From: a virus
DNA: 64,000 bases
Strand: one strand, 5' to 3'
IMG/VR virus record: IMGVR_UViG_3300042565_001021
Coordinates: 62,001 to 126,000 of that record
Position numbers and translations under genes: made by a program. The notes beneath the pieces are model-generated. The model was not told the DNA's origin. It saw nothing but the letters and a program-made list of their open reading frames with translations, and searched no databases. Positions 6,169 through 49,041 of the stretch are shown piece after piece (the stretch's first letter is position 1; every line of letters starts with the position of its first letter).

Positions 6169-6473
6169 TTTAGTTTCAATAGCGTCATTACCTCTTCGGA
6201 AACGTCGTACCACACACCTTTCACTTGCCGAACAATGAAGTAATCTTTATCTTCTACAAATGTTGCTCGTATCCATGTTAGCACTTTAGCATCGGCGGTA
6301 ATTGAATACATAGTCACACCGTCGACTACTGCCGATTCTAATACTGAATACATTTTTAATACCCCATACATCGGTTGAACTCCGACAATCTCGGCCGCAA
6401 TTAGATTAGGTACTATTCTTCGTATAAACGGAATCAGTACTTTTTGAAATTCTGTATGGTCTATCATAACCAT
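6159..6473 (-). CDS. (K/R)W-family mini-protein
   Basis: 104 residues ending EVMTLLKLKWA. Its start codon overlaps the end of the upstream member by 10 bases (ATG nested in AAA TGG). The N-terminal two thirds are unique to this copy. Function unknown. Confidence 0.65.
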   Translation of the reverse strand: MVMIDHTEFQKVLIPFIRRIVPNLIAAEIVGVQPMYGVLKMYSVLESAVVDGVTMYSITADAKVLTWIRATFVEDKDYFIVRQVKGVWYDVSEEVMTLLKLKWA

Positions 6474-11884: not shown

Positions 11885-12157
11885 ATGAACAAGATTATGA
11901 TTGTTTTACTTGCTGCTGTTTCTATGTCCGCTTTTGCTGCTGATGCTGCTAAGGCACCTGCTGCTCCTGCTGTTGCTGCTGCTCCTGCTGTTGCTGCTGC
12001 TCCTGCTGTTGCTGCTGCTCCTGCTGCTAAGGCAGAAGCACCAAAGGCTAAGGCAAAGCCTGCTAAAAGCAAAAAGGCAGCAAAGAAGCCAGCAGCAAAA
12101 ACTCCTGCTCCTGCTCCTGCTCCTGCCGCAGCGCCCGCCGCTGTTCCTGCTAAGTAA
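11885..12157 (+). CDS. Exported Ala/Pro/Lys-rich repeat protein
   Basis: 90 residues. A clear signal peptide (MNKIMIVLLAAVSMSAFAA, cleavage after AFA) is followed by three copies of PAVAAA, a Lys/Ala stretch (KAKAKPAKSKKAAKKPAAK) and a Pro/Ala tail. AAGGAAA lies ahead of the ATG. The composition resembles bacterial periplasmic acid-shock-like proteins, suggesting capture from a host. It is a lone plus-strand gene among minus-strand genes and ends at a bidirectional terminator. Function is inferred only as periplasmic. Confidence 0.65.
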   Translation: MNKIMIVLLAAVSMSAFAADAAKAPAAPAVAAAPAVAAAPAVAAAPAAKAEAPKAKAKPAKSKKAAKKPAAKTPAPAPAPAAAPAAVPAK

Positions 12158-23307: not shown

Positions 23308-23335
23308 CTTAGGTTAAACCTAAGTCATTGATTTA
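23308..23335. promoter_or_regulatory. 8-bp palindrome joined to the TAAGTCATTGATTTA motif
   Basis: CTTAGGTT (23308-23315) and AACCTAAG (23317-23324) are perfectly complementary around one base, and the motif occupies 23321-23335. It sits 20 bases upstream of the promoter's -35 and just after the stop of the late operon, so it may be a terminator and an operator at once. Confidence 0.5.
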
Positions 23336-24559
23336 ATAGCGTAATCCAGCCATTTCTTCTATGTATTCGCGGAGTTCTTTGTCGATGGCTGGCTTGGCAA
23401 TGATGTTCCAAATGCGATCTTGCACTTCGTATCTCAAATCCATCGAGTCATACAGCGTATCTTTTTCTGCTATGTCTTCGAAGTCCATGTTCATGCTGCC
23501 CAACCAATCGCCTATTATAAACTGTACGTCGGTATCATCTAAGTCCTCGCCTGCTAAGAACATGTCAGAATCTAGGCCGGCTATAATCGCATCGGTTAGT
23601 CCTTGCCCGTCTCGAAGAAGTGCGTTATGTACTAGCGTAGATAACTTTCGAGGAATATGACCGTTGGATTGTTTTGCTAACGTGCGATAAATCGCATCGC
23701 TTACTTTCAACACTAAGTTCCTGTTACTAACTGACCGTAAAATTGTCTCAGCCATACTATGTTTAAGGTTCTCGAAGTCTTCGGCGAATTCTTCGGCACC
23801 AACTACAAACTCAACTACGTTGTTTGCTAATGCCTCGTTCATAAACAGATCAACCACTTGCGGGAACCTTCGTAGTAACGGGTCTAACTTAATAGGTATG
23901 TCCTGTATGTCCATAAACTGTCTGGCGCGGAAATGGAACTGGTACTTTTCTCCAGGACTAACAGGTGCCTTAGGTAAAAGGATGTATAAGTTTCCTTCCT
24001 TGTTGTAACGCTCAAACATGTTATTATTCTTTGCTGCCGTACACCAAGTTGTACCTTGCCCGTAATACTTCGCTGCTTCTACGTTCAGTATATGCAGGAT
24101 CCGTAAAGTGTCGTCGTCGAGCACTACGTTTACTTGTCCTTTATCTACTACGACATCTTGCGGTTCAGGATAAGTAGCAACGGTTTGCTCAAAGTCTTGC
24201 ATTGACCTGAACCGGTTGATATCTCTGTGCTCTGGCTTGAGTTGCTGCTTAGTCTTTAGCTTGTGGAACCGCTCTAACGCAGATGCGCCGCGTGATTCAA
24301 AGTCTTCGTACTTAGTAACGACGCCAAGTTGAGCAGCATAGGTTTTACATAACCACTGGGTGTATTCTTTGTGCGGGGTTGGATCCATTTCCTCGAAACC
24401 CCCAAGCAACCAGTTTATGTCGATTTCCGTTTTATTTAATTCGTCTTGTTGATCGTAAATTGATCGATCCTTTTTAGCAACCGCGAGAAGCTTTTCACCA
24501 AAGTTTTGTGCTGTGGTTTGACGATTGTACTCTACCAGGAATTCTACTGCTCTTACCAT
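23333..24559 (-). CDS. Putative capsid-packaged protein with a GTTWCTA domain
   Basis: 408 residues from ATG 24557-24559 (MVRAVEFLVE), nested in the Trp codon ending the upstream gene. The N-terminus fits the M-x-R/K-A-x-E-F-x-x-E tag of this operon, with LVE as the likely cleavage site. The core YYGQGTTWCTAAKNNN...YNKEGNLYILLPK is a domain seen in other large phages with unknown function. It is the last of thirteen genes in the late operon. Confidence 0.65.
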   Translation of the reverse strand: MVRAVEFLVEYNRQTTAQNFGEKLLAVAKKDRSIYDQQDELNKTEIDINWLLGGFEEMDPTPHKEYTQWLCKTYAAQLGVVTKYEDFESRGASALERFHKLKTKQQLKPEHRDINRFRSMQDFEQTVATYPEPQDVVVDKGQVNVVLDDDTLRILHILNVEAAKYYGQGTTWCTAAKNNNMFERYNKEGNLYILLPKAPVSPGEKYQFHFRARQFMDIQDIPIKLDPLLRRFPQVVDLFMNEALANNVVEFVVGAEEFAEDFENLKHSMAETILRSVSNRNLVLKVSDAIYRTLAKQSNGHIPRKLSTLVHNALLRDGQGLTDAIIAGLDSDMFLAGEDLDDTDVQFIIGDWLGSMNMDFEDIAEKDTLYDSMDLRYEVQDRIWNIIAKPAIDKELREYIEEMAGLRY

Positions 24560-24978
24560 CGCGCCGCTGCCTTTACAAGTTCTATACTTAGTGGTTCTAC
24601 GCTTACTATTTGATCGGGAGTTACCCAGCCTTTCTTCTTTAGCCATTTGCCTTCGTTGCTTGCTTGTGACAACGGATCTGAATCATCTACTTCCCACGTA
24701 TTTATATCGTCGTTAAACGATACGATAGAGACAATGCCCGAGCCCATCTTCTTAGCTAATTCCCATTCCCACTTTGCTGCCCAGCGTGTTGCGTCCTTCT
24801 TGGATGTCATAGCAAAGATCTCGCCAATGTTGCCATACTGGCCGCCTGCTGCTTTAACAAAATTAGTAGGGTTAGCACCAGTAATCCCTTTAGCTTGGAT
24901 TTTTGAAACTGTTACAGTTCTAGTAACGTGATACAAAGTTGCCCCGGTTGATTCAGTTATAAACTCTTTAGCTTTCAT
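24553..24978 (-). CDS. Putative packaged protein, ADP-ribosyltransferase-like
   Basis: 141 residues starting MKAKEFITESTG (GGAGG six bases upstream). After the tag, LYHVTRTVTVSKIQAKGI is an opening like those of ADP-ribosyltransferase-fold proteins (LYHxT...I...G), followed by FAMTSKKDATRWAAKW. Catalytic residues cannot be fixed by eye, so the fold call is weak. Cleavage after FITE would free the domain in the capsid. Confidence 0.5.
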   Translation of the reverse strand: MKAKEFITESTGATLYHVTRTVTVSKIQAKGITGANPTNFVKAAGGQYGNIGEIFAMTSKKDATRWAAKWEWELAKKMGSGIVSIVSFNDDINTWEVDDSDPLSQASNEGKWLKKKGWVTPDQIVSVEPLSIELVKAAARW

Positions 24979-25829
24979 TACCATCCTCCCGGCGGCTCTG
25001 CAGGCAACCCTGCCCCTTTAAGGTCAGAAGCAGAAACTTTTGCTCCACCAGGTGGTGAAACCGGTTTTGGTTCTTTAACTCCGTTCTTCGAATCTACAAA
25101 TCGTTTCCATAAGCTCTTCTCTATTGCTATACACTTCCCACTAAACCATACCTCGTTTTTCATAGGGTGGTTTAAAGCAAAAGACTTGATAGTTTTAATT
25201 TGCATGCCTGTCCTGTCAGGAGCCATGCCTCTGTTTAAGACATCAATGAAATCCTCTGACCCAACTTTTCCGTTTGACAGATACCGTAACTCTTTTTCTA
25301 CTCTTGGCATCTTTACTGCTTTGACAAACTCAGCGTATGAAGTGTCGGGTAAGTACAGATAGTTTCTACACATGTCAGCGATGCCTTCAAACGTGGTGTG
25401 AATGTTAGGTTCAAACTCTGGCAAATGCGCCTTCACTTCCCATATGTCTTTCTCTGGACAAATGCCTATCCTTGTTCCGTTGAACGGAAATAAAGCATAT
25501 AAAGATCCACCAAATGCGTTAGCATACGTCCGATCACTTGTAGCAATTAAGCTCTTGCTACGCTTTGGCCAAAGTGCGTAATTAGGACTATTGTCCATCA
25601 ATAGCGTATAGTGATTAGAAGTGTTCTGTGACTTGCGCTCGCTGTTTGTTGTATCAATGAACACTAACGGTTCTTGGTGGTCTTTCATTGAACGCCAGAT
25701 CGGATTCTCTAACATAGGCAGAGCTTCTGTACAGTGAGCGTTCAGCAGCTCCATAGCCTTCTCTAGCTGAAGGTTCTCAGCCTGGTATGGGGTAACCGCG
25801 GCTTCAACAGTAAATTCTTTTGCTCTCAT
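24978..25829 (-). CDS. Putative packaged protein, ADP-ribosyltransferase-like (Alt-like)
   Basis: 283 residues starting MRAKEFTVEAAV. IWRSMKDH (about residue 44) could be the first Arg motif, and WPKRSKSLIATSDRTYANAF (about 85-104) the Ser-Thr-Ser-like strand, followed by GGSLYALFPFNGTRIGIC, a combination typical of phage ADP-ribosyltransferase-like proteins. The C-terminal tail is Pro/Gly-rich. T4 Alt, which is packaged and injected, is the functional precedent. ATG two bases after the upstream stop. Confidence 0.5.
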   Translation of the reverse strand: MRAKEFTVEAAVTPYQAENLQLEKAMELLNAHCTEALPMLENPIWRSMKDHQEPLVFIDTTNSERKSQNTSNHYTLLMDNSPNYALWPKRSKSLIATSDRTYANAFGGSLYALFPFNGTRIGICPEKDIWEVKAHLPEFEPNIHTTFEGIADMCRNYLYLPDTSYAEFVKAVKMPRVEKELRYLSNGKVGSEDFIDVLNRGMAPDRTGMQIKTIKSFALNHPMKNEVWFSGKCIAIEKSLWKRFVDSKNGVKEPKPVSPPGGAKVSASDLKGAGLPAEPPGGW

Positions 25830-25831
25830 GA

Positions 25832-26461
25832 TTACTCGAATGTCACCCAAGGATCGGCAGCTATTATAGTCCCGTCTGCTCTCATTAACCAATTCTCAGA
25901 ATGTAGGTCAAGAATGATTTCTGTTAGGTTATGCGCATCAGCATACACTTGCGCAGCTTTATAAAGAAATGTTGTTGCTTCTAATATTCCGCTTACGGTG
26001 TTTGCACCAGTAAGCTTACTGTCAAGTAATACCTGTTCTAATCTATTAGATTCGTAACCTAAACCGTGTCCTTCGCACTTGACTGAGTTGGCGACATCCC
26101 ATAATACATTTGCGAGATAGTCGTTGTTAAGAGGATACAATCGTTCAATTCTGATTTGTAACACTTCCTCTGCGTCTACGTCTATACCATGTATAACCGG
26201 AAAATGTTTACTTTTGTACCCGTGGTCTACACAGAAGTGCACAAATGCCAAAGATGCTTTATGAACTCCTTTATCGGAGCCACCGAACCCGCCGCCTACG
26301 ACTTTAACGACAGTATCAGGGTCAGAAAAATGATTCCACACTGTGGCTGTGTATCCTTTGCCAACTTGGTTCCATCCAGACTGCTTACGAATTTCATCGT
26401 TAACGAATCCTGGGTCAAGCTCGTTTAGCTGTTCGTTCTCGAATAGTTCAGTTAGAAACAT
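25832..26461 (-). CDS. Putative packaged kinase-like protein
   Basis: 209 residues starting MFLTELFENE, close to the T4 Alt N-terminus (MELITELFDE), with LTE as possible cleavage site. The kinase fold is indicated by GKGYTATVW (Gly-rich loop, about 34-42), TVVKVVG (ATP-binding Lys), RIERLYPL (hinge) and DLHSENWLMRADG...DPW (catalytic Asp/Asn and metal-binding Asp, about 185-205). The substrate is unknown. Paralogous to 27017-27868, 57956-58729 and the end of 58726-59907. Confidence 0.6.
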   Translation of the reverse strand: MFLTELFENEQLNELDPGFVNDEIRKQSGWNQVGKGYTATVWNHFSDPDTVVKVVGGGFGGSDKGVHKASLAFVHFCVDHGYKSKHFPVIHGIDVDAEEVLQIRIERLYPLNNDYLANVLWDVANSVKCEGHGLGYESNRLEQVLLDSKLTGANTVSGILEATTFLYKAAQVYADAHNLTEIILDLHSENWLMRADGTIIAADPWVTFE

Positions 26462-26468
26462 AATATTC

Positions 26469-27017
26469 TCATAATGTGAACAGTGGACCTTGGATAAACC
26501 AGGTCTCTGTCCTTTCTTTAATCATTCCGTTGCGTAAAGCTTCGATGACGTCGGGTGTAAAGTCTCGATTCCGCCAACCTGATATTATCAGATGTGTTTC
26601 GACCGGAGCGTTACCTTCGAGCTCTAACTGGGCATTCATTCGGTGTCTACCTTCGTGCCCAGTTACCCAAGCCGGGAGAATAAACTTTCCGTTCTCCCAT
26701 TCTTCGTCTACGCTTATGTATAGTGTTGGTGCGCCGAAGCTTCCTCCGGTTCGAGCATGATTTTTCATTTTTTCAATGCTGCTTCTTGCTGAGTCGTCAA
26801 CGGTCAAGTTGCTTGCTAAATTTAAGAACTTGCTTGGCTTCATCATCACCCGCAGGCCCATGTAATCGATTTCTTGGTTGTTAGGCGTCTGGCCCCAACC
26901 TGATTGGTTATCAATGTTTAGCTCAGTAATTCTTGTCAACTCTTCAGACAACACCTTATCGACTTCTTTCTGAAGAATATCAAATACCGTTTCGTTAATG
27001 AATTCTTGTGCTCTCAT
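26469..27017 (-). CDS. Putative packaged ParB/sulfiredoxin-like protein
   Basis: 182 residues starting MRAQEFINETVF. FILPAWVTGHEGRHRMNAQL (about 118-137) resembles the GxHRxxA motif of ParB-like or sulfiredoxin-like folds, which bind nucleotides. The first 40 residues after the tag are a charged helix. ATG overlaps the upstream kinase-like gene's stop. Confidence 0.5.
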   Translation of the reverse strand: MRAQEFINETVFDILQKEVDKVLSEELTRITELNIDNQSGWGQTPNNQEIDYMGLRVMMKPSKFLNLASNLTVDDSARSSIEKMKNHARTGGSFGAPTLYISVDEEWENGKFILPAWVTGHEGRHRMNAQLELEGNAPVETHLIISGWRNRDFTPDVIEALRNGMIKERTETWFIQGPLFTL

Positions 27018-27868
27018 TAGTCGTTCGCTCCTGGCGCCCACATATCTCCGTTAGGCTTAAAGCTAGTGCTGTTGCTGTTCGATCCGCTCTTATCAATTCC
27101 TGGGCGGGCTCCCCTCTCGTCGCTAGAGACGACCTTGTCACCGCTAACATCGCTGCTCCGTTCGTCTCGTTCGTCTGAGTAAAAATATCCTTGCTCGTCA
27201 CTGAATACCTGATCTGCTTCGGAATACCACGGGTCAGCAGCTATGATAGTTCCGTTTGGCCTCATTAACCAGTTGCCGCCGTGCAAATCTATCCAGCCTT
27301 CGTTTATATTGTGAGCTTCCAAATAAACTGGTAAGGCCTTGCTCAAATACTTAATAGCTTCGACTATCTCGTCGACGTTATTGTTCTCTTTCATGCCCTG
27401 TATTCCTGAATACTTCATTGCTGACAGCAATTCGATTTTCGATTTAGTTAATGCTGCGCCGCCGGTAACAGCATTAGCTAATCTGCTTAGACCGCTCCTT
27501 ACGTCACCGCTACTAATAGGAAGCAACTTCTCCATTCTGATCTGTAATACTTCGGCGTCGTCTATGTTTATTCCGTGAACGATAGGATAGTGCTTACTCG
27601 TGTGTCCGTGATCAACTAGAAAGTGAATAAACGCTAAAGTAATATTTCGATAGCCACCTTGCGCTTCGTAGTCTCCACCACCGACTACTTTAACTACGGT
27701 GTCTGGTTCTTGATAGTGTTGCCAAACTGACGCAGTAGCACCTTGTCCTAGCTTATCCCAGGCTCGTAAGTTTTTAAACTTACCTTGTGATTGCTGCTTG
27801 ATAACCTGGTTAACATAATCCGGGGCAAGTTCGGTTAGTTCAGTGTCAAATAATTCAGTTAGGAACAT
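27017..27868 (-). CDS. Putative packaged kinase-like protein with a disordered tail
   Basis: 283 residues starting MFLTELFDTELTE. GQGATASVWQHY, TVVKVVGGG, RMEKLLPI and DLHGGNWLMRPNG...DPWYSE mark the kinase fold as in 25832-26461. The last 65 residues are Ser/Asp/Arg-rich and disordered (SDERDERSSDVSGDK), possibly a target-binding or autophosphorylated tail. A GTAAATAC late-promoter-like sequence sits right before its ATG. Confidence 0.6.
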   Translation of the reverse strand: MFLTELFDTELTELAPDYVNQVIKQQSQGKFKNLRAWDKLGQGATASVWQHYQEPDTVVKVVGGGDYEAQGGYRNITLAFIHFLVDHGHTSKHYPIVHGINIDDAEVLQIRMEKLLPISSGDVRSGLSRLANAVTGGAALTKSKIELLSAMKYSGIQGMKENNNVDEIVEAIKYLSKALPVYLEAHNINEGWIDLHGGNWLMRPNGTIIAADPWYSEADQVFSDEQGYFYSDERDERSSDVSGDKVVSSDERGARPGIDKSGSNSNSTSFKPNGDMWAPGAND

Positions 27869-27877
27869 AGTTAGTAT

Positions 27878-28822
27878 TTACCTGTCGAACAATGCTGCGA
27901 TTTCTGCGGATTTCTTAGCTAACATCTCTTTAGTGTACTTTGCCTTCTCTATTGCCGCAGGGGTTTCTGCTTTGGCGAACTTACTGCTATTTATCGCTGT
28001 GTTGATTTTACCTAAGTAGATTTCTTTTACTCTCGGAATAAGTTCTTCTTTGCCTACGCTCTGTAAGATGCCTTTAATACTGTCGATCATATCGGCTACG
28101 CGGACTTCTCCGCCTACTAACCCGGGATACTGCTTAACTAACGGAGATGGTGTTCCTCCGAAAAACTTAACTATGTCAAGTGCCCAGGTCTTTGGGTTGT
28201 TAGTGACTGTCTTTAGGTCAACATCCTTAACTGTGCGGAACGGGACGAATGTGCCATTTTGGAATTTTGCTTGAACTCCGTGGCCGCCGCCGATGCTCAG
28301 ATTGAGGACTTCACCGAGCGACGAGTAAAGTGAGTTTGCTAACACACCTTTCATGTTCCACTCTGGCCGTAGTGCGTTAGTCCAGTCTTTATTCTCGTAG
28401 TAAGATGTGATTAGGTCGATCTGAACATAATCGTTTCCTATCTTTAGGATAACATTAACGCCGTTGTCTGAAGAAAAAGCAGAGGTTGAATCGCAAAACT
28501 CTTTAATAGCGTCGTTGTAGATCTTAAGGTTTGCGTTATTTGTGGTTCCTTCAATGCGTGGGATATGGAACTGGACATCAACGTCGCCATACTCTTTGTC
28601 TGGCTGTTGAACTAAGTCCCGTTCGTAGTATGTTGCGCTGCCACCCGGTGCCGATATCTCTGTTGGTCCTAATCCTTTTGTCTTTAGGAAGTTGTTCAAG
28701 GCGGGAATAAACTGAGTAGTTAATACCTTCATACATTGCTGAACGAGCCGTGGGGTAATAACTGTGTTTTGTGTTAGTGTCGATGCCCATCCACCTTCTA
28801 AAATAATTTCGTTAATTTTCAT
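27878..28822 (-). CDS. Putative packaged nucleotidyltransferase-like protein
   Basis: 314 residues starting MKINEIILEGGW, with ILE as the possible cleavage site. GGSATYYERDL (about 60-70), GDVDVQFHIP (about 78-87) and VQIDLI form the GS...DxD...D pattern of the nucleotidyltransferase fold. Such enzymes add nucleotides to tRNA, DNA or proteins; the substrate is unknown. ATGA overlap with the upstream gene. Confidence 0.55.
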   Translation of the reverse strand: MKINEIILEGGWASTLTQNTVITPRLVQQCMKVLTTQFIPALNNFLKTKGLGPTEISAPGGSATYYERDLVQQPDKEYGDVDVQFHIPRIEGTTNNANLKIYNDAIKEFCDSTSAFSSDNGVNVILKIGNDYVQIDLITSYYENKDWTNALRPEWNMKGVLANSLYSSLGEVLNLSIGGGHGVQAKFQNGTFVPFRTVKDVDLKTVTNNPKTWALDIVKFFGGTPSPLVKQYPGLVGGEVRVADMIDSIKGILQSVGKEELIPRVKEIYLGKINTAINSSKFAKAETPAAIEKAKYTKEMLAKKSAEIAALFDR

Positions 28823-29604
28823 AATATGTTCTTATCCCCAATAAACCAGGTTGTATTCATAAGATTTTCACTCATTTCCTTATTAGTTTTTAGATGTCGA
28901 GTCATCTTACTTTCAATGAATATTTCGCTTGGTCCTGCTTTTTCATATGCTGCTTCATTCCATTCTTTTTCTAAAGAGTTGATATCCGGGAAATCACCGG
29001 TTTGATCAGTTAATGTTAATCCTCTACCTTTAGCTAAGATAAGTTTCTTAAGCCATGTAAATCCTTCAGGAGTTAACCCTTCATTTTTTGAGATTTGTAT
29101 TTTTACTACAGCTTTAAGACGATGTGTTACGCAGCCAATTAATGCAGTAACATAACCGGGACCATTAACAAAGTTCCTAATTCCTTTTAACTCATTTCCT
29201 TTTAGTATTACTAGTGCATCAATACTGTCATCACCAATGAACGAGTAGACATCTTGATCATTTATATTACAGTGATATACATCTTTACCATCTAAACTAT
29301 TTACAATTTGAGATTTAGTAATTATTTGATTTTTCATATCTTGAGTTATATCTAATGCAGAATGGGCGTAGTCAATTTCAGTTAACCCTTCTTCGTTTGT
29401 CATCAACTTTTTAACACGCGGCTTGAATAGCTGGACATCTCCCTTATCGGTCTTTAACACTGGCTGATTGTGCTTATCCTTCTTAAAGCCTTTGATCTCG
29501 GCAGGGCTGTTCTTAAATTTACCCTTCATTACAACATCCCCGGTTTCCAATTCCGGAGGTTGGTAGGTTTCTGCACCTTCTACAATAAACTCGTTTGCTC
29601 TCAT
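28819..29604 (-). CDS. Putative packaged protein, 261 aa
   Basis: Starts MRANEFIVEGAE. A small beta domain (GKFKNSPAEIKGFKKD, then KGDVQLFKPRVKKL) follows, a module also seen near the N-terminus of tagged proteins in other T4-like phages. The rest (AVVKIQISKNEGLTPEGF) is not recognised. A+T-rich compared with neighbours, suggesting separate acquisition. Confidence 0.55.
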   Translation of the reverse strand: MRANEFIVEGAETYQPPELETGDVVMKGKFKNSPAEIKGFKKDKHNQPVLKTDKGDVQLFKPRVKKLMTNEEGLTEIDYAHSALDITQDMKNQIITKSQIVNSLDGKDVYHCNINDQDVYSFIGDDSIDALVILKGNELKGIRNFVNGPGYVTALIGCVTHRLKAVVKIQISKNEGLTPEGFTWLKKLILAKGRGLTLTDQTGDFPDINSLEKEWNEAAYEKAGPSEIFIESKMTRHLKTNKEMSENLMNTTWFIGDKNIL

Positions 29605-30011
29605 TCTTTGTTGCCACCTTTATATAGATCAGCAATACCTTTGCCAAAGTCATTTCCGTTGTATATACGCATAGACGATGGGATAATATCGTTGCCTAAC
29701 TCTTTAGCAAAGACATACATCTCTTTCGCAATACCTTGTCGGCGATACTCTGGCTTTACTTCGACGAATACTGCTTCTAAGTTGTTGTCTGTCACTTTGT
29801 ATGTTACGTTGCCTACTTTGTTGCCTTTAGCAGTGAAGGCGTCAATGTGAAAGTTTTCGCTTGTATTAATCTTCTTAGTTGGCGAATACGGTAGCGGGCC
29901 GTGGTATGCTTTAAGCATATACTTGCCGCCGAGTATCTCTTTCGTCTTTTCAAACCCGCGGCGGAATACTTGCGGGTTGATGCTGTCAGTTATGAACTCA
30001 GATGATTTCAT
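29601..30011 (-). CDS. Putative packaged GNAT-like acetyltransferase
   Basis: 136 residues starting MKSSEFITDS. VEVKPEYRRQGIAKEMYVFA (about 95-114) matches GNAT motif A (V.P.yRgqGiG..L) that binds acetyl-CoA; here RRQGIA. The tag has Asp rather than Glu at the putative cleavage site (ITD), so processing is uncertain. Coupled by ATGA to its neighbours. Confidence 0.6.
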   Translation of the reverse strand: MKSSEFITDSINPQVFRRGFEKTKEILGGKYMLKAYHGPLPYSPTKKINTSENFHIDAFTAKGNKVGNVTYKVTDNNLEAVFVEVKPEYRRQGIAKEMYVFAKELGNDIIPSSMRIYNGNDFGKGIADLYKGGNKE

Positions 30012-30448
30012 TGCACTCCTTTAATTACTAATCGCCAATCACTAAATTTTAATCGCAACACAGTTAAGAACTGATCTTTATCTGACTCAGTCTGAAATAG
30101 TAAAGTGTTACTAAGCTTATCCCCACTAACTCGCTCACCGTCCGGAAATCGATATATCTGTCCTAAGTATTCAAAATAAAACATGTCAGTTTGATGATCT
30201 TGTAATACTACTGGACCAGAAAAGTGTTTCACTGATAATAATTTACCAAGAGGAATAACAAGAAAACTAACTGGAGAAACCTTTGCCCCGATCTGCGGTG
30301 TAACTTGTTGCTGTTGAGCCAAGAAACTTTGAAGAATCTTAAAATCATCATTATCCTCAAATAACTCAGGACGATCTAATAGCATAATACGGACATCCTC
30401 GTATTGCTCATCTAACACATCAATATAAGAGAACTCAGAGGATTTCAT
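30008..30448 (-). CDS. Hypothetical protein with a partial tag
   Basis: 146 residues starting MKSSEFSYID, keeping the first six tag residues but not the cleavage Glu. The C-terminus LFQTESDKDQFLTVLRLKFSDW recalls the (K/R)W-family ending (ESDKDQF...LRLKF). If it is packaged, the tag would not be removed in the usual way. Confidence 0.55.
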   Translation of the reverse strand: MKSSEFSYIDVLDEQYEDVRIMLLDRPELFEDNDDFKILQSFLAQQQQVTPQIGAKVSPVSFLVIPLGKLLSVKHFSGPVVLQDHQTDMFYFEYLGQIYRFPDGERVSGDKLSNTLLFQTESDKDQFLTVLRLKFSDWRLVIKGVQ

Positions 30449-30870
30449 ATTTGCTGTAACACCGGAATTGATGTTAACCCTAATTCAATAGCTCGTTGCA
30501 CACGGTGATTTCCGTCTATTATAAAACCATCTTTAGCTAATACCGGTGGAGTTTGAGTTAAACTTTGATAAGTAACATTTCTGGCGCGAGCCTGGTCCAT
30601 TTTAAATGGATCAGAGTTAATAATATCCGTCCCTGCTTCTTGATCGCTAAACGTTCTATATCGAGATGCTTCGTCAGAACTAATATTTGTTAATTTATAT
30701 TTGTGCTTAGAGATATACGTCCTATCACCTGCACCCAAATACATGTGCTCATCTAAATAATCTGCTACTACACTTCCGCGCACTATGTCACCAGGTTTGC
30801 CCCAAGCAAAGCCAACAACTCGCTTAATAAAGTCGATCAACCCCTCAGTTATGAATTCTGTCGACTTCAT
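30445..30870 (-). CDS. Putative packaged ParB-like protein
   Basis: 141 residues starting MKSTEFITEGLI. The C-terminal KDGFIIDGNHRVQRAIELG (about 116-134) is a clear ParB N-domain-like motif (DGxHR), a fold that binds or hydrolyses nucleotides and can cut DNA. The start is chosen at the tag; a six-codon extension upstream is less likely because of the TAATG junction. Confidence 0.6.
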   Translation of the reverse strand: MKSTEFITEGLIDFIKRVVGFAWGKPGDIVRGSVVADYLDEHMYLGAGDRTYISKHKYKLTNISSDEASRYRTFSDQEAGTDIINSDPFKMDQARARNVTYQSLTQTPPVLAKDGFIIDGNHRVQRAIELGLTSIPVLQQI

Positions 30871-31280
30871 TATCTCTTCCGTGTGCAAGCAGGGTGTGAA
30901 CCGTCACTCAATGATTTGCGGATTGCTTCGGAGTAGCGTGTCCATTTCGTTAGCTCTGCGTCGCTCAGTTCCATAAAGCGATTGTCCATCTCTACCCAGG
31001 CTTTTTCAATATCCGTTAATGGTTTGTTATACTGGTATTCGTGCTCGCGGATCTTATCTTCAGCGTTGATTGCTGCTGCGCGATGCTGTACAATACACTT
31101 CTTCGCTGCTTCGCTTGCTGCACCAGAATCAAAACGGTTCTTACCTTCAAAGCGTCCAATCTCTTTGCCATCAGCAGTAGCTACGAAGGTGTTCGTTAAA
31201 TCACCATCCTCGTCTTGGAGGCGGGTAATCTCATACTTTACCTTGCGAGCATCTTCTTTTAGGAATTCTTTGCTTAACAT
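30870..31280 (-). CDS. Putative packaged protein, 136 aa
   Basis: Starts MLSKEFLKEDAR, a variant tag with LKE as the cleavage motif. The rest is charged (GKEIGRFEGKNRFDSG) with a helical C-terminal half. No domain is recognised. The stop overlaps the next gene (TAATG). Confidence 0.55.
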   Translation of the reverse strand: MLSKEFLKEDARKVKYEITRLQDEDGDLTNTFVATADGKEIGRFEGKNRFDSGAASEAAKKCIVQHRAAAINAEDKIREHEYQYNKPLTDIEKAWVEMDNRFMELSDAELTKWTRYSEAIRKSLSDGSHPACTRKR

Positions 31281-31972
31281 TAAACGGTTTCTCCCCAGGC
31301 AGTCATTAAGTTAACCACCATGCTGTCATTGTTTGGTCCATACAAAGGGAGTAAATAAAAAGACTCAGCGTGTAGCATAACTTCGTTTTTACTTCTGACT
31401 GCTTCTTTAACTGCGCCGACTTGATAGTCCCCGTCATCAAGCATCCATTTAATGGCCCCTATTAGGTTACGGTTGTTAGTATCTCCAACCCAATAACTCT
31501 TGCTAAATCCCGCTGCGGCAACTACCTCGCTAGGATAATGGTTAAACAAGAACATGTCGAGATGCTCAGTAAGGTCAGATATCTCGGGCGACCAACAAGC
31601 AGTAAATTCTCCTCTTGGAATGACTAATAAAGGATTGCCGTAGTCTCTAGCCATACCTTGAGATCCGGTCGCAAACAAAGCATTACTTCTGAACTTTATG
31701 CCAGTCGTTTCCTCGAAATATGCGTCGGCAATCTGATGAATAGCAAGGGGAGTATCTTTTGGCTTTCTGTTGACCGGGCACATGAGCACAGTGACTTGGT
31801 CAACACCCCTTCTTCCGTGATATAAGTCGTGCCTGTATAAGTCAAAGTCGATGGACTTTAGGTAAGGTTGACACTCGCTTTTTAGTACCTCAGCAAAACG
31901 GCGGAATTCCGGGGAGATAACAATTTCTTTCCCGGCTACAGTTACTTCAGTTATAAATTCAGAGCTTTTCAC
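31280..31972 (-). CDS. Putative packaged protein, ADP-ribosyltransferase-like
   Basis: 230 residues starting MKSSEFITEVTV, first gene of the thirteen-gene late operon. LYHGRRGVDQV (about residue 51) fits a first ART motif, and KFRSNALFATGSQGMARDYG (about 94-113) fits the Ser-x-Ser strand plus A..YG. VIPRGEFTACWSPEISDL follows. This order is typical of Alt-type ADP-ribosyltransferase-like phage proteins; the catalytic Glu is not certain. Confidence 0.55.
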   Translation of the reverse strand: MKSSEFITEVTVAGKEIVISPEFRRFAEVLKSECQPYLKSIDFDLYRHDLYHGRRGVDQVTVLMCPVNRKPKDTPLAIHQIADAYFEETTGIKFRSNALFATGSQGMARDYGNPLLVIPRGEFTACWSPEISDLTEHLDMFLFNHYPSEVVAAAGFSKSYWVGDTNNRNLIGAIKWMLDDGDYQVGAVKEAVRSKNEVMLHAESFYLLPLYGPNNDSMVVNLMTAWGETV

Positions 31973-31973
31973 T

Positions 31974-32004
31974 ACTCGACATCCTTGGACATCGAGTATT
32001 TATC
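31974..32004 (-). promoter_or_regulatory. Late promoter and hairpin of the packaged-effector operon
   Basis: GATAAATA (31997-32004, minus strand) is followed at once by a hairpin with arms at 31991-31997 and 31974-31980 (outer ACTCGA with TCGAGT, inner TCC with GGA, two mismatches between). It precedes thirteen overlapping tagged genes with no later strong promoter seen. Confidence 0.65.
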
Positions 32005-32007
32005 TGT

Positions 32008-32595
32008 TTAGCGTCGAGTAATGATTTCGTCCACTAAGCCAAAGTCCAGGGCTTCTTGTGCGGACATGAAATTATCACGCTCCATGGCAGCAGCAAATTC
32101 GTCAAACGTCTTGCCTTTGCTATTGTGATCAACGTAGATCTGCGTAAGAACCTTCTTCATTTTGAGGATTTCTTCGACCTGAATAAGCATGTCCGTTGCT
32201 TGACCACGTGCACCACCGCTAGGTTGGTGAATCATGTGTCGTGCATACGGGAGGATCATGCGCTTACCTTTCGCGCCTGCTTGAGCAAGCAACGAACCCA
32301 TGCTACAGGCCTGACCCATTACGATAGTGCGAACGTCACACTTTACGAATTGCATGGTATCGTAGATGGCCATACCTGCCGTTACGATGCCGCCCGGGGA
32401 GTTGATGTAAAAGATAATCTCTTTGTCTGCATCTTCTGCTTCAAGGAACAACATTTGCGCTACGACTACGCTAGACGACACCTCGTTTACGTCATCGTGA
32501 AGCATAACGATACGGTCTTTAAGCAAGCGACTGTAGATATCGTAGCTACGTTCGCCTTTAGCGGTTTGCTCGACTACCATTGGAATAAGGGACAC
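32008..32595 (-). CDS. clpP: ClpP serine protease subunit
   Basis: 195 residues, full length for a mature ClpP. The catalytic triad is Ser98 (GQACSMGS), His123 (HMIHQPSGG) and Asp174 (MERDNFMS). YINSPGG forms the substrate-stabilising turn. The start is GTG 32593-32595 with GAAAGGTAA upstream. ClpP forms a tetradecamer working with host ClpX or ClpA. The phage also encodes a ClpS-like adaptor (47408-47719). It has its own promoter. Confidence 0.92.
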
Positions 32596-32726: not shown

Positions 32727-33275
32727 ATGTCCAGCAATAATACTTATTACGTTTACGCATATCTGCGCAATAAAGACTCAAAAACTGCTAAAGCAGGAAC
32801 ACCTTATTATATTGGCAAAGGATCAGGACGACGCGCCTGGGTAACCCATAAACATAAGACCCCGGTGCCGAAAGATAAAACGTTTATTGTTCTACTTGAA
32901 CAGAATTTAACTGAAGTCGGAGCATTAGCCTTAGAGAGGAGAATGATTGCTTGGCATGGAAGAAAAGATTTAGGAACAGGCATTCTATTAAATAGAACAG
33001 ACGGAGGAGACGGTTGTAGCGGAGTTATTATGTCTGAATTAACTAAAGAAAAACGTAATGCTGCGCAAAGAGGAAAGAAGTTGTCAGAAGAACATAAGAG
33101 AAAAATATCTGTCGGTTCAAAATCAAGACCGCCTATATCCGAAGAAACGAGAGAAAAATTTAGGCTACGAAACAAAAACCGGGCGCCGATGACAGCTGAA
33201 GAGAGGGTAAAATTATCAATTGCAGTAACGCAGTCATGGGCAAGAAGAAAATTACTTAAATCTTCTGCCGCTTAA
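32727..33275 (+). CDS. GIY-YIG homing endonuclease, cassette 2
   Basis: 182 residues. TYYVYAYL...GTPYYIGKGSGRRAW (about 5-37) is the GIY-YIG core, and LERRMIAWHGR carries the catalytic-type Glu. Three NUMOD3-like DNA-binding repeats follow (LSEEHKRKIS, ISEETREKFR, MTAEERVKLS). AGGAGG precedes the ATG. Inserted between clpP and a SprT-like gene, overlapping the latter's end by 20 bases. Confidence 0.85.
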   Translation: MSSNNTYYVYAYLRNKDSKTAKAGTPYYIGKGSGRRAWVTHKHKTPVPKDKTFIVLLEQNLTEVGALALERRMIAWHGRKDLGTGILLNRTDGGDGCSGVIMSELTKEKRNAAQRGKKLSEEHKRKISVGSKSRPPISEETREKFRLRNKNRAPMTAEERVKLSIAVTQSWARRKLLKSSAA

Positions 33276-39511: not shown

Positions 39512-40616
39512 GGTATTTGCTCTTTTGCTTGGTAAAGGTAACAGTTGCGCCTTTGTCGTTGGAGTAAGTAAACGCTCCGGTTGCTGCGTCGATCTTCTTC
39601 AGATTCAGGTAAGTGAATTGGAAGTTTGCGCCTTCTGCGGGCAGCTTCGGATCTGTTGTAGATTTAGCAACAGCGGTGGCACCTTGAACCGATGGAGCAT
39701 CTTCGTCGTCATCAGTACCGTAGTAGTTGATGTGGAAGCGATCCTTGGATAGCGGGTTGCTTTCCATAGTCTTCGGGTGGTAAATCCCTTCCGGTACATC
39801 GATACCGTTGATCTTCATTGTGATGTCGTAAACGCCGCCGTCGTCGGACTGTGGCTTTGCGTTCAGCATCTTCATTGCTTCTTGTGCTGTTTCACCGTAG
39901 CGGTTCATTTCTTCAACAAGCGACTTCAGCATGTCGAAGTTGAATGCGCTGAACATAGAGCTAATGCGGCAGATGTTTTCGATCTGCTCTTTGTTCTTGA
40001 GGTTCTCTTCGCAGTATTCGGTAATGAATTCAGTTTCGAGTCCGTGGAAATCAAGCATGTAAAAGATTCGACCTGGACGGTTGCGCATGTGGGAATCAAT
40101 GCGCCACTTGTCGTTACAGGTGAGCACGAACAGTTTTTTACTTGGGAATACGCCGTCGAGCAGTGTCAGGATAGCGGATTGTTCGTCGGCGTCGTAGACC
40201 TTTTCGAACTCGTCGAACAGGATCATACAAGGCTGTTGAATGCTTTGGATTAGTGTGTTGAACTTTTCGCCGTTCCATGCGGTGTTGATGATAATAGTTG
40301 GCATGTCTTGCGCAGCACAAGCGATAGAAAGAGACTTTGCGAGCAGCGTCTTGCCGGAACCTTTTTCGCCTGTTAGCAGAACACCGGTCGTCGCTGGCCG
40401 GTCGTTGAATGTGTTCATGATGCGTTCTGTGTGACGCAGGGTGTCGCCGTACACTTTGTGCTTCAGTTCGAAGTCGTCAATGGACTCGAAGTAGAAGTTT
40501 TCGTACTGGTCCATTTTAATTGTGTAGTTGCCGGGAGGCAGGGCCGGAGTTAGGTTTAGAACCTCGTCGTCATAAGGAACAAAAGTGTTTCCGGATTTCC
40601 TAAATTGGGTAGCCAT
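39495..40616 (-). CDS. AAA+ ATPase
   Basis: 373 residues. Walker A GEKGSGKT (83-90), Walker B MILFDEFEKV (131-140), sensor-1-like LTCNDK (about 165-170) and NRPGRIFY (179-186) with arginine-finger candidates. The first 60 residues (YTIKMDQYENFYFESIDDFE) and the last 110 are specific to this protein. It probably remodels or disassembles a protein complex. It sits between two blocks of (K/R)W genes behind its own promoter. Confidence 0.85.
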   Translation of the reverse strand: MATQFRKSGNTFVPYDDEVLNLTPALPPGNYTIKMDQYENFYFESIDDFELKHKVYGDTLRHTERIMNTFNDRPATTGVLLTGEKGSGKTLLAKSLSIACAAQDMPTIIINTAWNGEKFNTLIQSIQQPCMILFDEFEKVYDADEQSAILTLLDGVFPSKKLFVLTCNDKWRIDSHMRNRPGRIFYMLDFHGLETEFITEYCEENLKNKEQIENICRISSMFSAFNFDMLKSLVEEMNRYGETAQEAMKMLNAKPQSDDGGVYDITMKINGIDVPEGIYHPKTMESNPLSKDRFHINYYGTDDDEDAPSVQGATAVAKSTTDPKLPAEGANFQFTYLNLKKIDAATGAFTYSNDKGATVTFTKQKSKYHDFVF

Positions 40617-40642
40617 TTGTCGCTTTCTTTAAATGATAAAAC

Positions 40643-40671
40643 ATTATATGCTACTTTGTGTTTTTGAGCAA
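40643..40671 (-). promoter_or_regulatory. Sigma70-type promoter of the AAA+ gene
   Basis: TTGCTC (40666-40671), 17 bases, TATAAT (40643-40648), leader of about 25 bases to ATG 40616. Confidence 0.65.
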
Positions 40672-40680
40672 GTATTTTGG

Positions 40681-40938
40681 TTATCGCGGTCCGGTGCTTC
40701 CCGTTCCTGTATCAAATGGCCATCTGGCTCGGGGAGCTTTATCTAACAAGTGCCCAGCAAGTAACAGGAACCAAGCTAAATCTTTTTCATTCGCAAAATA
40801 AAACTCGTCGTTGTTTGTCCTTGACCAACGGACATATTCTAAGCCAAAATGATCCTGGCAGATTTTAGTCACTTCGAAAAAGTGCGCCCCGTAAGTGTTT
40901 GGCGCTTTGAACCAGTGTTCGAAAATTACTTCTTTCAT
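40681..40938 (-). CDS. (K/R)W-family related protein, divergent ending
   Basis: 85 residues. FYFANEKDLAWFLLLAGHL matches the family ending up to the last residues, then a Pro/Arg-rich tail replaces LKW. ATGA overlap with the next upstream member. Confidence 0.6.
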   Translation of the reverse strand: MKEVIFEHWFKAPNTYGAHFFEVTKICQDHFGLEYVRWSRTNNDEFYFANEKDLAWFLLLAGHLLDKAPRARWPFDTGTGSTGPR

Positions 40939-41261
40939 TTCTTTAGCGGAATGTAAGGAGCGTAGAATGCTGCTCCCTCATAACCAACCATTAAAGAAGA
41001 CGTGTTGGACAGATGGCTACCTGTCAGGGCAAACCAGGTTATGTCCTTCTTGTAGCGAAACTGGAGAACACCACCAAATGTTAGCCTCCAGTTGCCGTGG
41101 TTGTCTCTTGTCTTTTTAGTAGCGTGGTTGTAGGATGTGCTGTGCTCTGGTCCAAAATGCTGAGTACATAACTGCCGTACTTCCTCACGCTTGTACGAGT
41201 ACCTGCCTTCAGCTTCGTACCATGATACTTTAGTTTTAGTTTTCTTGCTCATTATGACCAC
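40935..41261 (-). CDS. (K/R)W-family related protein, divergent ending
   Basis: 108 residues with VRQLCTQHFG and FRYKKDITWFALTGSHL, then a 25-residue tail. The start is a GTG nested in AGG TGG, or the ATG three codons later (MSKKTK). Confidence 0.6.
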   Translation of the reverse strand: MVIMSKKTKTKVSWYEAEGRYSYKREEVRQLCTQHFGPEHSTSYNHATKKTRDNHGNWRLTFGGVLQFRYKKDITWFALTGSHLSNTSSLMVGYEGAAFYAPYIPLKK

Positions 41262-41479
41262 CTCAGCAAAAACATTTCACGATCCTCGTCGCGCTCAAAG
41301 TATATCTGACCAAAAATGTTGTCAAAGAAATAACTTCCTATGCCTTCATATTCTTCTAACCAGTCCAACTGCCGCAAGACATTCTCGTCTTTTCTCGGAT
41401 CCCATAATGCTGCCCCGCTGTTAATAACAGGTTGCCAGTCGGTGCCTATCATTCCGTTTAGTTCTCGTCTCATGACCAT
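41252..41479 (-). CDS. (K/R)W-family mini-protein
   Basis: 75 residues ending ERDEDREMFLLRWS. ETNGMIGT-like N-terminus (RRELNGMIGTDW) shared with the next gene (RETNGMIGTEW), so the two are a recent tandem duplicate. Start nested in AAATGG. Confidence 0.7.
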   Translation of the reverse strand: MVMRRELNGMIGTDWQPVINSGAALWDPRKDENVLRQLDWLEEYEGIGSYFFDNIFGQIYFERDEDREMFLLRWS

Positions 41480-41715
41480 TTCAGTAAAAACATTTCACGA
41501 TCTTCGTCGCGTTCAAAGTAATACAGCTTGAAATGCGGATCGGAATAGTATTTTCCTAACCCTTCATACTCAGCTAGCCATATTTCAATCTGAATACCTT
41601 CAAACGAAATTCCGCTAAGATAGTCAAAGTCAATTAGCTCTCTTTCGAGATTCACGCACTGCCACTCGGTGCCAATCATCCCGTTAGTTTCGCGTTCCAC
41701 TGCTACTCCAACCAT
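41470..41715 (-). CDS. (K/R)W-family mini-protein
   Basis: 81 residues ending ERDEDREMFLLKWS, the closest paralogue of 41252-41479. Start nested in CTATGG of the upstream gene. Confidence 0.7.
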   Translation of the reverse strand: MVGVAVERETNGMIGTEWQCVNLERELIDFDYLSGISFEGIQIEIWLAEYEGLGKYYSDPHFKLYYFERDEDREMFLLKWS

Positions 41716-43391: not shown

Positions 43392-44009
43392 ATGTATATT
43401 TATACTTCAGAACAAGTAAGACCATATGTTTATATGGGAATTCATAAAGTAACCGGTGAGATTTACATAGGTTATCGTGAAGCAAACTCAACTCCGTCAC
43501 ACCTTGATATCTTCGAATATCGGACTTCGTCTAAGATAGTTAAACCGAAGTTTGATGATTATACCTGGTATATAGTAGCAGAGTTCATAACAGGTGATGC
43601 GGCTTATGACTTTGAACAACAATTGATATTTGAAAATTGGGATAGTCCTCTTCTGTTAAACAGAAGCTGTCAATTTGGTCATCAGAAAAGATTTAAGTGT
43701 TCAAATAAAGGAAGAAAACAATCAGACAGTCATATCGCAAAGCTGACTGAGATTCGTAAAAATAGGACACTTCCGGCTGATTTCGGCGCAAAGGTCTCGG
43801 CTGGTCTCAAAGGAAAACCGAAATCCGAAGAGCATAAGATAAAAACAGGTAATGCCTTTCGAGGGATCCCTCGAACTGAAGAAACTAAGCAAAAAATTAA
43901 AGAGAAAAGAGCTCTTCAGGTAATAACACATGAATCAAGAATTAAAGCCGCAGCGACCCGAGCAAGAAACTTAGCATTGAAAAGTCAACCAAAAGAAATG
44001 GGCCCATAA
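43392..44009 (+). CDS. GIY-YIG homing endonuclease, cassette 3
   Basis: 205 residues. RPYVYMGIHKVTGEIYIGYRE (split as RPYVYMGIHKVT and GEIYIGYRE, about 9-29) is the nuclease core; FEQQLIFENW carries the Glu. NUMOD3-like repeats follow (QSDSHIAKLTEIR, KSEEHKIKTG, RTEETKQKIK). Placed in the gap upstream of the TOPRIM promoter, in the same antisense orientation as the other cassettes. Confidence 0.8.
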   Translation: MYIYTSEQVRPYVYMGIHKVTGEIYIGYREANSTPSHLDIFEYRTSSKIVKPKFDDYTWYIVAEFITGDAAYDFEQQLIFENWDSPLLLNRSCQFGHQKRFKCSNKGRKQSDSHIAKLTEIRKNRTLPADFGAKVSAGLKGKPKSEEHKIKTGNAFRGIPRTEETKQKIKEKRALQVITHESRIKAAATRARNLALKSQPKEMGP

Positions 44010-47407: not shown

Positions 47408-47719
47408 TTAGATTACCGGCTCCAATCTCACCAAAAGTGGAAATCCATTGTTGCGAGCAAGCATCGTTACTTCAACGCCTTTTTGCTCTGCTAGCTCATA
47501 CGGCAGAACAGCAACTACAGCAGATCCGTCAACGTGGATCTTTTCGCAAATATCAGCGGCTGACTCTGGAGAATGATCGAATACCTCGACCAGGCTCATA
47601 ACTACGAATTCCATTGTCGTAGTTTCGTCGTTGATGTAGATGACGTTAAACAAGGGAGGCGGCTTTAAATCTAGCTTCGGCTTAATTTTTTCTTTAATTC
47701 CAATGTCGGCGTGTGCCAT
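47408..47719 (-). CDS. clpS: ClpS-like adaptor protein
   Basis: 103 residues. PPLFNVIYINDETTTMEFVV (21-40) matches the ClpS core (YxVxLxNDDxTTMEFVV), followed by HVDGSAVVAVLPYELAEQKG and LARNNGFPLLVRLEPVI. The N-terminal tail is disordered, as in ClpS. ClpS binds host ClpA and delivers N-degron substrates to ClpP. The phage encodes ClpP as well, 15 kb away. Confidence 0.85.
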   Translation of the reverse strand: MAHADIGIKEKIKPKLDLKPPPLFNVIYINDETTTMEFVVMSLVEVFDHSPESAADICEKIHVDGSAVVAVLPYELAEQKGVEVTMLARNNGFPLLVRLEPVI

Positions 47720-48435: not shown

Positions 48436-48454
48436 TTAATATTTCTGTTTTGGT
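48436..48454. repeat. 19-bp direct repeat, left copy
   Basis: TTAATATTTCTGTTTTGGT is repeated exactly at 49041-49059. The two copies bracket the tagged gene 48454-49041; the right copy is the last codons and stop of the bS21 gene. Confidence 0.85.
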
Positions 48455-49041
48455 TATATCTCTTCAAACAAGGTCTCAGCATACCAAACCCACCCTTGGC
48501 CACGATTATTTACATCTTCTGAAAAGTAATTCTTACCTGGACCCAACTTAGTTGATTCGAACATGTAACATAAGTCTGGATCATTGATCGGCTCTACTAG
48601 CTTGGTCTTTTCTCCAGTTATCTTATTCAATACAGACGGAGTAGCCATTCCATATTTTCCTAACGAATTGATTAACTCTTGCCCTCCGGCGAAAATAGCT
48701 CCATCTGCTATAACTGGATCCTTAGCAAATTCTTTAACTGCGTAGAGTAACCATTTAATCGCTGAAGTTTTTCTAAAGGTTGGAACTATGTAAATTAGAT
48801 CAATATGAGAATAAATGTTGCCTAGTAGCCTGTCTCGACTAATCTTAACAAACCCTATTAACAATGCCTGATCTTTTTTAAGAATCAAGTATTTGTCTTT
48901 TTCCCAAAGCGATAATGTTTCTGAGACCTCAGTTATTTTTACAGCATCGTCTATCTCGGCATTGATGAACTGATGATCTACTTTATCATCTGGAAATTCC
49001 CCGAACTGCGTTGCTTCGGGCGTAAACTCATTCGACTTCAT
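48454..49041 (-). CDS. Putative packaged GNAT-like protein, inserted cassette
   Basis: 195 residues starting MKSNEFTPEATQ, an outlying copy of the tag of the 23-32 kb operon (TPE as the cleavage site). FVKISRDRLLGNIYSHIDLIYIVPTFR (split as FVKISRDRLLG and IDLIYIVPTFR) and KTSAIKWLLYAVKEFA look like GNAT motif A without a clear acetyl-CoA loop. It lies between 19-bp repeats, suggesting insertion at the end of the bS21 gene. Confidence 0.6.
   Translation of the reverse strand: MKSNEFTPEATQFGEFPDDKVDHQFINAEIDDAVKITEVSETLSLWEKDKYLILKKDQALLIGFVKISRDRLLGNIYSHIDLIYIVPTFRKTSAIKWLLYAVKEFAKDPVIADGAIFAGGQELINSLGKYGMATPSVLNKITGEKTKLVEPINDPDLCYMFESTKLGPGKNYFSEDVNNRGQGWVWYAETLFEEI

Follow-up and report, generated by a model that had tools for sequence, protein, structure and literature searches.

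What could lead a phage to begin thirteen neighboring genes, several of them from distinct protein families, with variants of the same short peptide? The question is raised by the window analysed here, a 64,000-nucleotide stretch of DNA (positions 62001-126000) from the 155,045-base IMG/VR virus record IMGVR_UViG_3300042565_001021. Thirteen tightly packed minus-strand genes in the open reading frame (ORF) list, at window 23333-31972 and numbered here from gene 1 (31280-31972) to gene 13 (23333-24559), carry an N-terminal tag of 9-10 residues that is degenerate in two of them (30008 and 29601). We consider it probable that this tag is a capsid-targeting propeptide of the T4 type, and that the tagged genes make up a large modular store of proteins that are packaged in the phage head and trimmed by a protease, many of them probably being injected. 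Packaging is supported by homology; binding to the prohead core, cleavage, injection and action on the host would follow the course that we propose below.

The placement of the tag at gene starts is far beyond chance. When 798 start codons were tested, the strict motif M[KR]xxE[FI]xxE stood at candidate starts of 14 of the record's 260 ORFs; none of 666 internal ATGs carries it. A wider motif is found at 19 ORF starts, one of which (record 96040-96540, plus strand) is probably spurious, and the Alt-like motif M...[ED]LF at 4, each again with 0 of 666 internal ATGs. With the doubtful plus-strand match removed, these motifs give 22 tagged proteins in the record, and four genes with degenerate or shifted tags (23333 and 30008 in the window, 27748 and 139643 in the record) bring the total to 26. 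Fifteen tagged genes lie in the window, 13 in the cluster and 2 elsewhere. An earlier reading of the window by a model that saw only the DNA (the sequence-only reading) had described the thirteen; all 13 ORFs are present, with the altered tags at 30008 and 29601 where it placed them, and the set of about 22-26 in the record, including the 2 extra genes in the window and about 11 outside it, is larger than it claimed. Its description of the genes as overlapping was nearly right: with starts taken at the tags, 9 of the 12 junctions overlap (by 1-7 nucleotides) and 3 are gapped (by 2-9 nucleotides). The tag start is an ATG internal to the longest ORF in 5 of the 13 genes: 30445-30888 (tag start 30870), 26469-27041 (27017), 24978-25892 (25829), 24553-24984 (24978) and 23333-24646 (24559).

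T4-style capsid targeting is a well-supported reading of the tags. In the T4 record, ipII and ipIII start with MKTYQEFIAE, Alt with MELITELF and gp24 with MAKINELLRE; the tags fit the ipII/ipIII and Alt starts, as the sequence-only reading had proposed. T4 ipI starts with MKTFKEFT and has its first [LI]xE at residue 19. According to the available text of PMC9026906, mapping of the T4 capsid-targeting sequence (CTS) assigned targeting mainly to residues 4 and 7 and processing to residues 8 and 10, and Asp at residue 10 blocked processing while targeting was kept. Alt is cleaved at ITE-6 (PMC5694885, in the portion available). Most of the tags here keep the residue classes of the T4 CTS, shifted one residue earlier: the hydrophobic targeting residue, F7 in T4, is F at position 6 in 9 of the 13 cluster tags, L in 2 and I in 1, and F at position 7 in MVRAVEFLVE. 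Gene 5 has Asp at the position that corresponds to T4 CTS residue 10, and gene 4 resembles ipI in that its first [LI]xE comes late, at residue 14. The tags of 24978 (TVE) and 29601 (ITD) lack [LI]xE at the tag end.

The likely processing site is also enriched near the starts of tagged proteins. An [LI]xE lies within 20 residues of the start in 27 of 31 tagged proteins and in 24 of 152 other ORFs, a comparison that is partly circular because the Glu helped to choose the tags. These 31 proteins, some with odd tags, were listed by hand, and the same list was used in the codon and PA5oct-homolog comparisons. In 16 of the 27 listed cases the first [LI]xE is followed directly by G, A, S, T or V. Gene 9 has 23 extra residues after its tag and then a second ITE that abuts the conserved body, where its homologs carry their sole tag. 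The model of 31280-31972 is confident over most of the body, and pLDDT is below 50 at residues 1-16. A comparison with the cut sites of capsid proteins was set aside, as T4 gp23 has an LLE of this kind near its start but is cut further on.

Support for packaging comes from Pseudomonas jumbo phage PA5oct, in whose record genes are annotated "ESI-MS/MS" (mass spectrometry, MS). The PA5oct homolog of gene 13, at 130473-131921, carries this annotation, as do the PA5oct homologs of record genes 131365 and 138891; the PA5oct homolog with a cytidylyltransferase match does not. The small gene that follows the portal gene, in the position of T4 gp67, begins with MKINDIITE in PA5oct, where it is MS-marked, and with MKLTELF in Atu_ph07. 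No paper on the PA5oct virion proteome was among the literature matches listed, and the virion data for phage XacN1, in the portion available, linked no ORF to the tag.

We postulate the following course. Expression of the thirteen-gene transcript, and of the tagged genes elsewhere, would come late in infection. Each protein would attach to the prohead core through the first part of its tag (Lys or Arg, then Phe, Ile or Leu), and a cut by a gp21-type protease after the Glu of (I/L)xE would free the mature cargo in the head. Much of this cargo would enter the next host along with the DNA. It may be a changeable host-modifying or counter-defence set, with ADP-ribosyltransferase-like, kinase-like, nucleotidyltransferase-like, GNAT-like and ParB-like members, and a gene could join the set by acquiring the local tag.

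Other phages carry the tag before unrelated bodies, as the sequence-only reading had suggested checking. A scan of IMG/VR with a DNA pattern for MKxxEFIxE gave at least 120 stretches; the 80 loci listed were analysed here, and the family census covered the range L044-L163. Among the matches listed in these 80 loci, 74 of 82 are open for at least 50 residues, 8 of 82 have more than 60 open codons upstream, and the bodies are very diverse. The fetched loci, most of them chosen by pattern, contain 171 ORFs with tags matched by regular expression (3837 start codons tested; the internal control of 18 in 5385 ATGs means that about 13 are expected), and these fall into 78 single-linkage families. The family census aligned and scanned 96 of the 111 proteins printed, out of 112 non-redundant ones from the 171, and lists 25 of 29 Pfam and 25 of 92 PHROG families. 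Pfam families among the 96 include, among the matches listed, DUF6267, GNAT, chitinase, cytidylyltransferase, Zeta toxin and a polyvalent-protein domain; one tagged DUF6267-type protein (locus L092) has relatives in 466 phage records, mostly cyanophages.

Individual loci have their own versions of the tag. Locus L121 has ten regex-tagged ORFs within about 7 kilobases (kb), nine of them MRAx[ED]F and one MKASEF, and the bodies include homologs of 24978, 25832/27017, 26469, 27878 and 31280. The dialect of locus L020 is MKSxEF, MKANEF and MKINEII, and its kinase-like bodies are tagged MKANEFITE, MKINEIIAE and MRINEVITT, compared with MFLTELF in the window. Atu_ph07 has eleven genes of the ADP-ribosyltransferase-like family near its helicase gene (by single linkage), 10 of which start with M[KR]WxxL[TNI]E. 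This tandem array spans L164:11484-22592 (39.5-50.6 kb) and its genes are unannotated; a 778-residue Atu_ph07 protein that the gene 1 fold matched among predicted viral structures is named Zeta toxin domain-containing protein, and it is as long as the product of the first gene in the array.

Across loci that were picked by hand, the form of the tag depends more on the phage or locus than on the body, though weakly when Atu_ph07 is left out. The comparison used 48 hand-picked proteins (13 from the cluster, 6 from the second tagged group of the record, 11 from L121, 7 from L020 and 11 from Atu_ph07) and left out the odd-tag second-group genes 131365, 133762, 135669 and 138891 and gene 4776 of L020. 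Mean tag similarity is 16.2 between different bodies at a single locus; across loci it is 8.7 when the bodies differ and 4.5 when they belong to the same family. The locus effect was reached by 0 of 300 shuffles, a figure inflated by the shorter tags of Atu_ph07, and there is no body effect (187 of 300). When Atu_ph07, Alt-like and odd tags are all removed the locus effect is clear (2 of 1000 shuffles). No body effect appears without Atu_ph07 (731 of 1000) or without the Alt-like and odd tags as well (374 of 1000).

Several observations weigh against the interpretation of the tags as head-targeting signals on delivered cargo. The virion evidence for this phage's proteins comes by homology. Of four PA5oct homologs of tagged families, three carry the MS annotation (P 0.11); the strict tag expression matches 6 of the 89 MS-marked late-region genes and 4 of the 170 others (p 0.097, not significant), the loose one 6 of 89 and 11 of 170 (p 1.0), and the Alt-like one 1 of 89 and 0 of 170. 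One PA5oct homolog, at 153120-153833, is untagged and yet MS-detected, and SCTP-2 has an untagged ADP-ribosyltransferase-like relative. In G001, a 328-kb relative, the gene in the gp67 position starts with MLLREFVYF, without (I/L)xE. The S77 protease was found in 3 of 25 environmental contigs (G019, G024 and G028) and was not found in this record. A few motif-bearing proteins look structural or replicative in the Pfam census of 96, among the matches listed, and because single structural and replication proteins occur there the motif is not perfectly specific. Lastly, the locus effect on tags is weak without Atu_ph07, when 94 of 1000 shuffles reach it.

Some of these points would also fit an alternative in which the tagged proteins are structural parts of the head core or inner head, packaged and perhaps trimmed, with no action in the host. 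Similar starts occur in T4 gp24 and, in PA5oct and Atu_ph07, in the gene at the gp67 position; the Pfam matches listed for the 96 tagged proteins include one to a tail-sheath stabiliser and one to a connector; and the second tagged group of the record follows the helicase gene, where PA5oct has many MS-marked proteins. However, several of the cluster bodies are enzyme-like, vary between phages and form paralog arrays, unlike core parts. We regard a purely structural role for the whole set as unlikely, and suspect that some of the tagged proteins may be structural rather than effectors. Expansion of one ancestral packaged protein, whose duplicated bodies diverged beyond recognition while the tag was conserved, would account for the real paralogs within the set and for the Atu_ph07 array, which is one expanded family. 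We find this explanation very hard to credit, since the bodies belong to distinct families that have their own homologs under other tags, and the 171 tagged ORFs of the fetched loci form 78 single-linkage families. We give almost no weight to the idea that the motif is kept for ribosome loading, as a recombination site or for another DNA- or translation-level reason: it does sit at the starts of tightly packed overlapping genes, but its codons vary synonymously (five Ser codons, for example) while the residues are kept, most tags finish with the prohead-protease motif (I/L)xE, and the dialects vary between phages with constant residue classes.

If the tags direct proteins into the head, the bodies behind them are the candidate cargo. 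The sequence-only reading had called these domains unrelated, and distinct families are indeed present, but two pairs are related: 25832 and 27017 as paralogs, 31280 and 24978 as members of one family. Of the domains it had guessed, the kinase-like ones are supported by motifs and weak profile matches and the ADP-ribosyltransferase-like ones by a modest fold match, whereas the GNAT and ParB-like matches are below threshold and the nucleotidyltransferase-like one is a motif seen by eye.

Gene 1 (31280-31972, minus strand, as are all of the cluster genes; tag MKSSEFITE) has an ADP-ribosyltransferase-like body. Gene 11 (24978-25829; MRAKEFTVE) is in the same ADP-ribosyltransferase-like family (PHROG 12810) by iterated profile, and two more members, r137538 and r138250, are in the record. 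The YRG-type Arg is nearly invariant in the family and is His in 31280, and an SxNE Glu is present in many rows (by eye); this Arg or His and the later Glu may correspond to the motif residues of ADP-ribosyltransferases. The model of 31280-31972 has pLDDT 81.6. A Foldseek search with this fold gave no confident match in the PDB (best E 0.2). VIA-align returned 18 rows, all with Z below 8, of which 13 are ADP-ribosyltransferases by title or known identity; these rows include 2hw2 (Z 4.8, 3.6 A over 90 residues), and the top row is 2aua, of unknown function (Z 6.3, 3.8 A over 129). Among predicted viral structures there are 28 matches with E <=0.001, and those named by organism are from Atu_ph07, Achromobacter phage Motura and uncultured phages. 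A PDB sequence-profile search with the alignment of this family found no ADP-ribosyltransferase and one weak, unrelated match to aIF2-alpha (E 0.014).

Genes 8 (27017-27868) and 10 (25832-26461), both with the Alt-like tag MFLTELF, have protein-kinase-like bodies. In this family DLHxxN and DP, which provide the D..N of the kinase catalytic loop and the Asp after it, are nearly invariant (10 rows), and its profile has weak PDB matches to the kinases NleH1 and NleH2 (best E 0.0013) and a match to PHROG 15752 (E 4e-4). Gene 9 (26469-27017; MRAQEFINE) has a ParB-like HEGRHRM motif by eye; in locus L134 a body like it is fused to a kinase-like body, which hints at joint action. Gene 3 (30445-30870; MKSTEFITE) has a ParB-like end (DGNHR) with sub-threshold matches (ddrB-ParB 13.8 bits, cut-off 27.6; PHROG 620, E 6.9e-4). 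Gene 5 (29601-30011; MKSSEFITD, with Asp in place of Glu at the cut position) is GNAT-like, with a best Pfam E of 6.7e-5 at 23.4 bits, below the cut-off of 30, and Acetyltransf_1 at 19.8, below 20.7. Gene 7 (27878-28822), with a tag of the EII type (MKINEIILE), has a nucleotidyltransferase-like motif by eye and no confident library match.

The other cluster genes have less telling bodies. Gene 4 (30008-30448), with the degenerate tag MKSSEFSYID, is homologous to record gene 27748-28209. Genes 2 (30870-31280; MLSKEFLKE) and 6 (28819-29604; MRANEFIVE) have bodies without an assigned family. Gene 12 (24553-24978; MKAKEFITE) has an LYHVT-type body of unsettled fold, and its relative in locus L117 has an identical tag. 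Gene 13 (MVRAVEFLVE) has a relative in Caulobacter phage CcrBL9, and the AlphaFold model of ORF 23333-24646 is poor (pLDDT 59). The fetched loci held no relative of genes 28819, 29601, 30445 and 30870, three further alignments (A5-A7) had no useful match in the PDB, and an NCBIfam scan of ten proteins found none over cut-off. Searches for the cluster DNA in known phages gave no match, and neither 27878-28822 and 27017-27868 nor the kinase-like protein of L134 gave one as a protein query. Two further tagged genes lie elsewhere in the window: 48454-49041 on the minus strand (MKSNEFTPE), GNAT-like below threshold, and 57956-58729 on the plus strand (MRANEFIIE), which is in the kinase-like family by iterated profile and has ATAAATA just upstream. 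A Zeta-toxin/AAA_33-like gene (58726-59907, plus strand) overlaps the latter by 4 nucleotides. Another IMG/VR contig, 3300044950_000617 (56 kb), has 100% identity to four window proteins.

A single late promoter for the cluster is plausible. A T4-late-promoter-like ATAAATA is at 31997-32003 on the minus strand, 31 nucleotides upstream of gene 1. This motif, picked post hoc as one of the most enriched 7-mers, is found within 70 nucleotides upstream of 19 of 149 minus-strand ORFs of at least 100 residues, compared with 2.5 expected. The claim of one late promoter in the sequence-only reading would fit the ATAAATA that precedes gene 1; inside the cluster there is also a weaker TAAATA, overlapping the stop that precedes gene 8, and the exact T4 form TATAAATA occurs in the window at chance level. 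Neither motif precedes the other eleven cluster genes.

Judged by its sequence relationships, the record covers part of the genome of a jumbo phage that is a relative of PA5oct. Its DnaB helicase is closest to those of PA5oct and kin (51% identity) and next to that of Atu_ph07, and the genes for helicase, RNR, ClpS, ClpP, DNA ligase, GroES-like protein, DnaJ and ClpA-like protein are in the PA5oct order except for a ClpP/ligase swap (by eye). The record seems to lack the head region. Neither a gp21-type S77 protease nor a T4-type portal was found in the 155 kb, and apart from a short minus-strand ORF at window 6159-6473 whose match to the major capsid protein of PA5oct covers 40 residues (E 1.6e-6), no head genes were found in the record, while PA5oct and G001 have portal, S77 protease and major capsid protein. 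Because the portal is missing too and the capsid match is so short, we do not count the absence of the protease against head targeting. The sequence-only reading had asked for this gene outside the window; the record does not supply it, and the relatives PA5oct and G001 do. An S77 protease is present in all six tested records above 160 kb (G001, PA5oct, Atu_ph07, SCTP-2, the 228-kb G019 and T4) and was not found in three contigs of 116-155 kb with one pattern match each.

Other genes of the record deserve mention. A proteostasis set comprises ClpP, ClpS, ClpA/B-like, DnaJ and GroES-like proteins (window 32008-32595 and 47408-47719; L002:12124-14418 and L002:14444-15343; L003:9176-9562). A full-length TctA transporter gene, unusual for a phage, is at record 40206-41654 (L003:206-1654, minus strand; Pfam E 1.7e-83), and about 1 kb downstream on the same strand is an ORF with a signal-peptide-like start and no Pfam match (L002:18274-19317). 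ORFs that resemble GIY-YIG homing endonucleases by eye, mostly antisense to their neighbors, are at window 32727-33275, 3575-4312, 43392-44009 and 51302-51880 (all plus strand) and at L006:1467-2168. A small Ala/Pro/Lys-rich frame at window 11885-12157 (plus strand) has a signal-peptide-like start and AAPAV repeats (by eye).

Injected proteins are known for few phages, and such first-minute proteins can decide whether bacterial defences work. A sequence rule for head-packaged cargo would give a list of counter-defence candidates, including unannotated families, and a route to testing how the head core recognizes cargo. We speculate, with slightly less than even confidence, that an open "address code" is common to T4-like and jumbo phages. 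Each phage would have a dialect of a short, cleavable head-targeting tag that suits its particular prohead core, and would load dozens of interchangeable injected effectors by equipping each with the local tag. If this is true, tag dialects would yield a list of injected effectors for thousands of uncultured phages.

The concept is already in print for T4, and the size of the set, the mix of cargo and the dialects look new. In the portions available of the sources, T-even internal proteins are described as diverse with the CTS alone conserved (PMC3012670), the CTS is suggested to let T4-like phages take various proteins into their heads (PMC9026906), and packaged ADP-ribosyltransferases are broadly described (PMC9503650). 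Among the matches listed from the open-access literature there was no report of a large CTS-tagged set or of tag dialects in jumbo phages. The T4 set, whose CTS is processed by gp21, comprises Alt and three internal proteins, and each of the latter blocks a different type IV restriction enzyme (available text of PMC12373910). The T4 proteins share with the set described here a short N-terminal tag that contains Phe and ends in (I/L)xE, and diverse bodies, Alt being an ADP-ribosyltransferase. In contrast, about 22-26 tagged proteins are present here in a partial genome, 13 of them in one cluster; F is mostly residue 6 and E residue 9, rather than 7 and 10; and there are kinase-like, nucleotidyltransferase-like and ParB-like bodies, with the protease not on the record fragment.

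Among larger phages, PA5oct (Arenbergviridae) has a close DnaB, a broadly similar gene order and homologs annotated ESI-MS/MS, but few clear tags, and no cluster comparable to the thirteen genes was seen after its ClpP gene. The Atu_ph07 array has homologous bodies and a common N-terminal tag ending in LxE, but a different dialect and a single family. In SPN3US and related giant phages, head proteins are also cut by a prohead protease and many are ejected, but several of their propeptides exceed 100 residues and one only is of T4-like length (PMC5694885, in the portion available). Polyvalent proteins and MuF-fused effectors similarly bring ADP-ribosyltransferases and other effectors into the head, according to the available text of PMC9503650. 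Those are delivered by fusion to head proteins or in large polypeptides, whereas the proteins described here would be delivered by a short, putatively cleavable tag.

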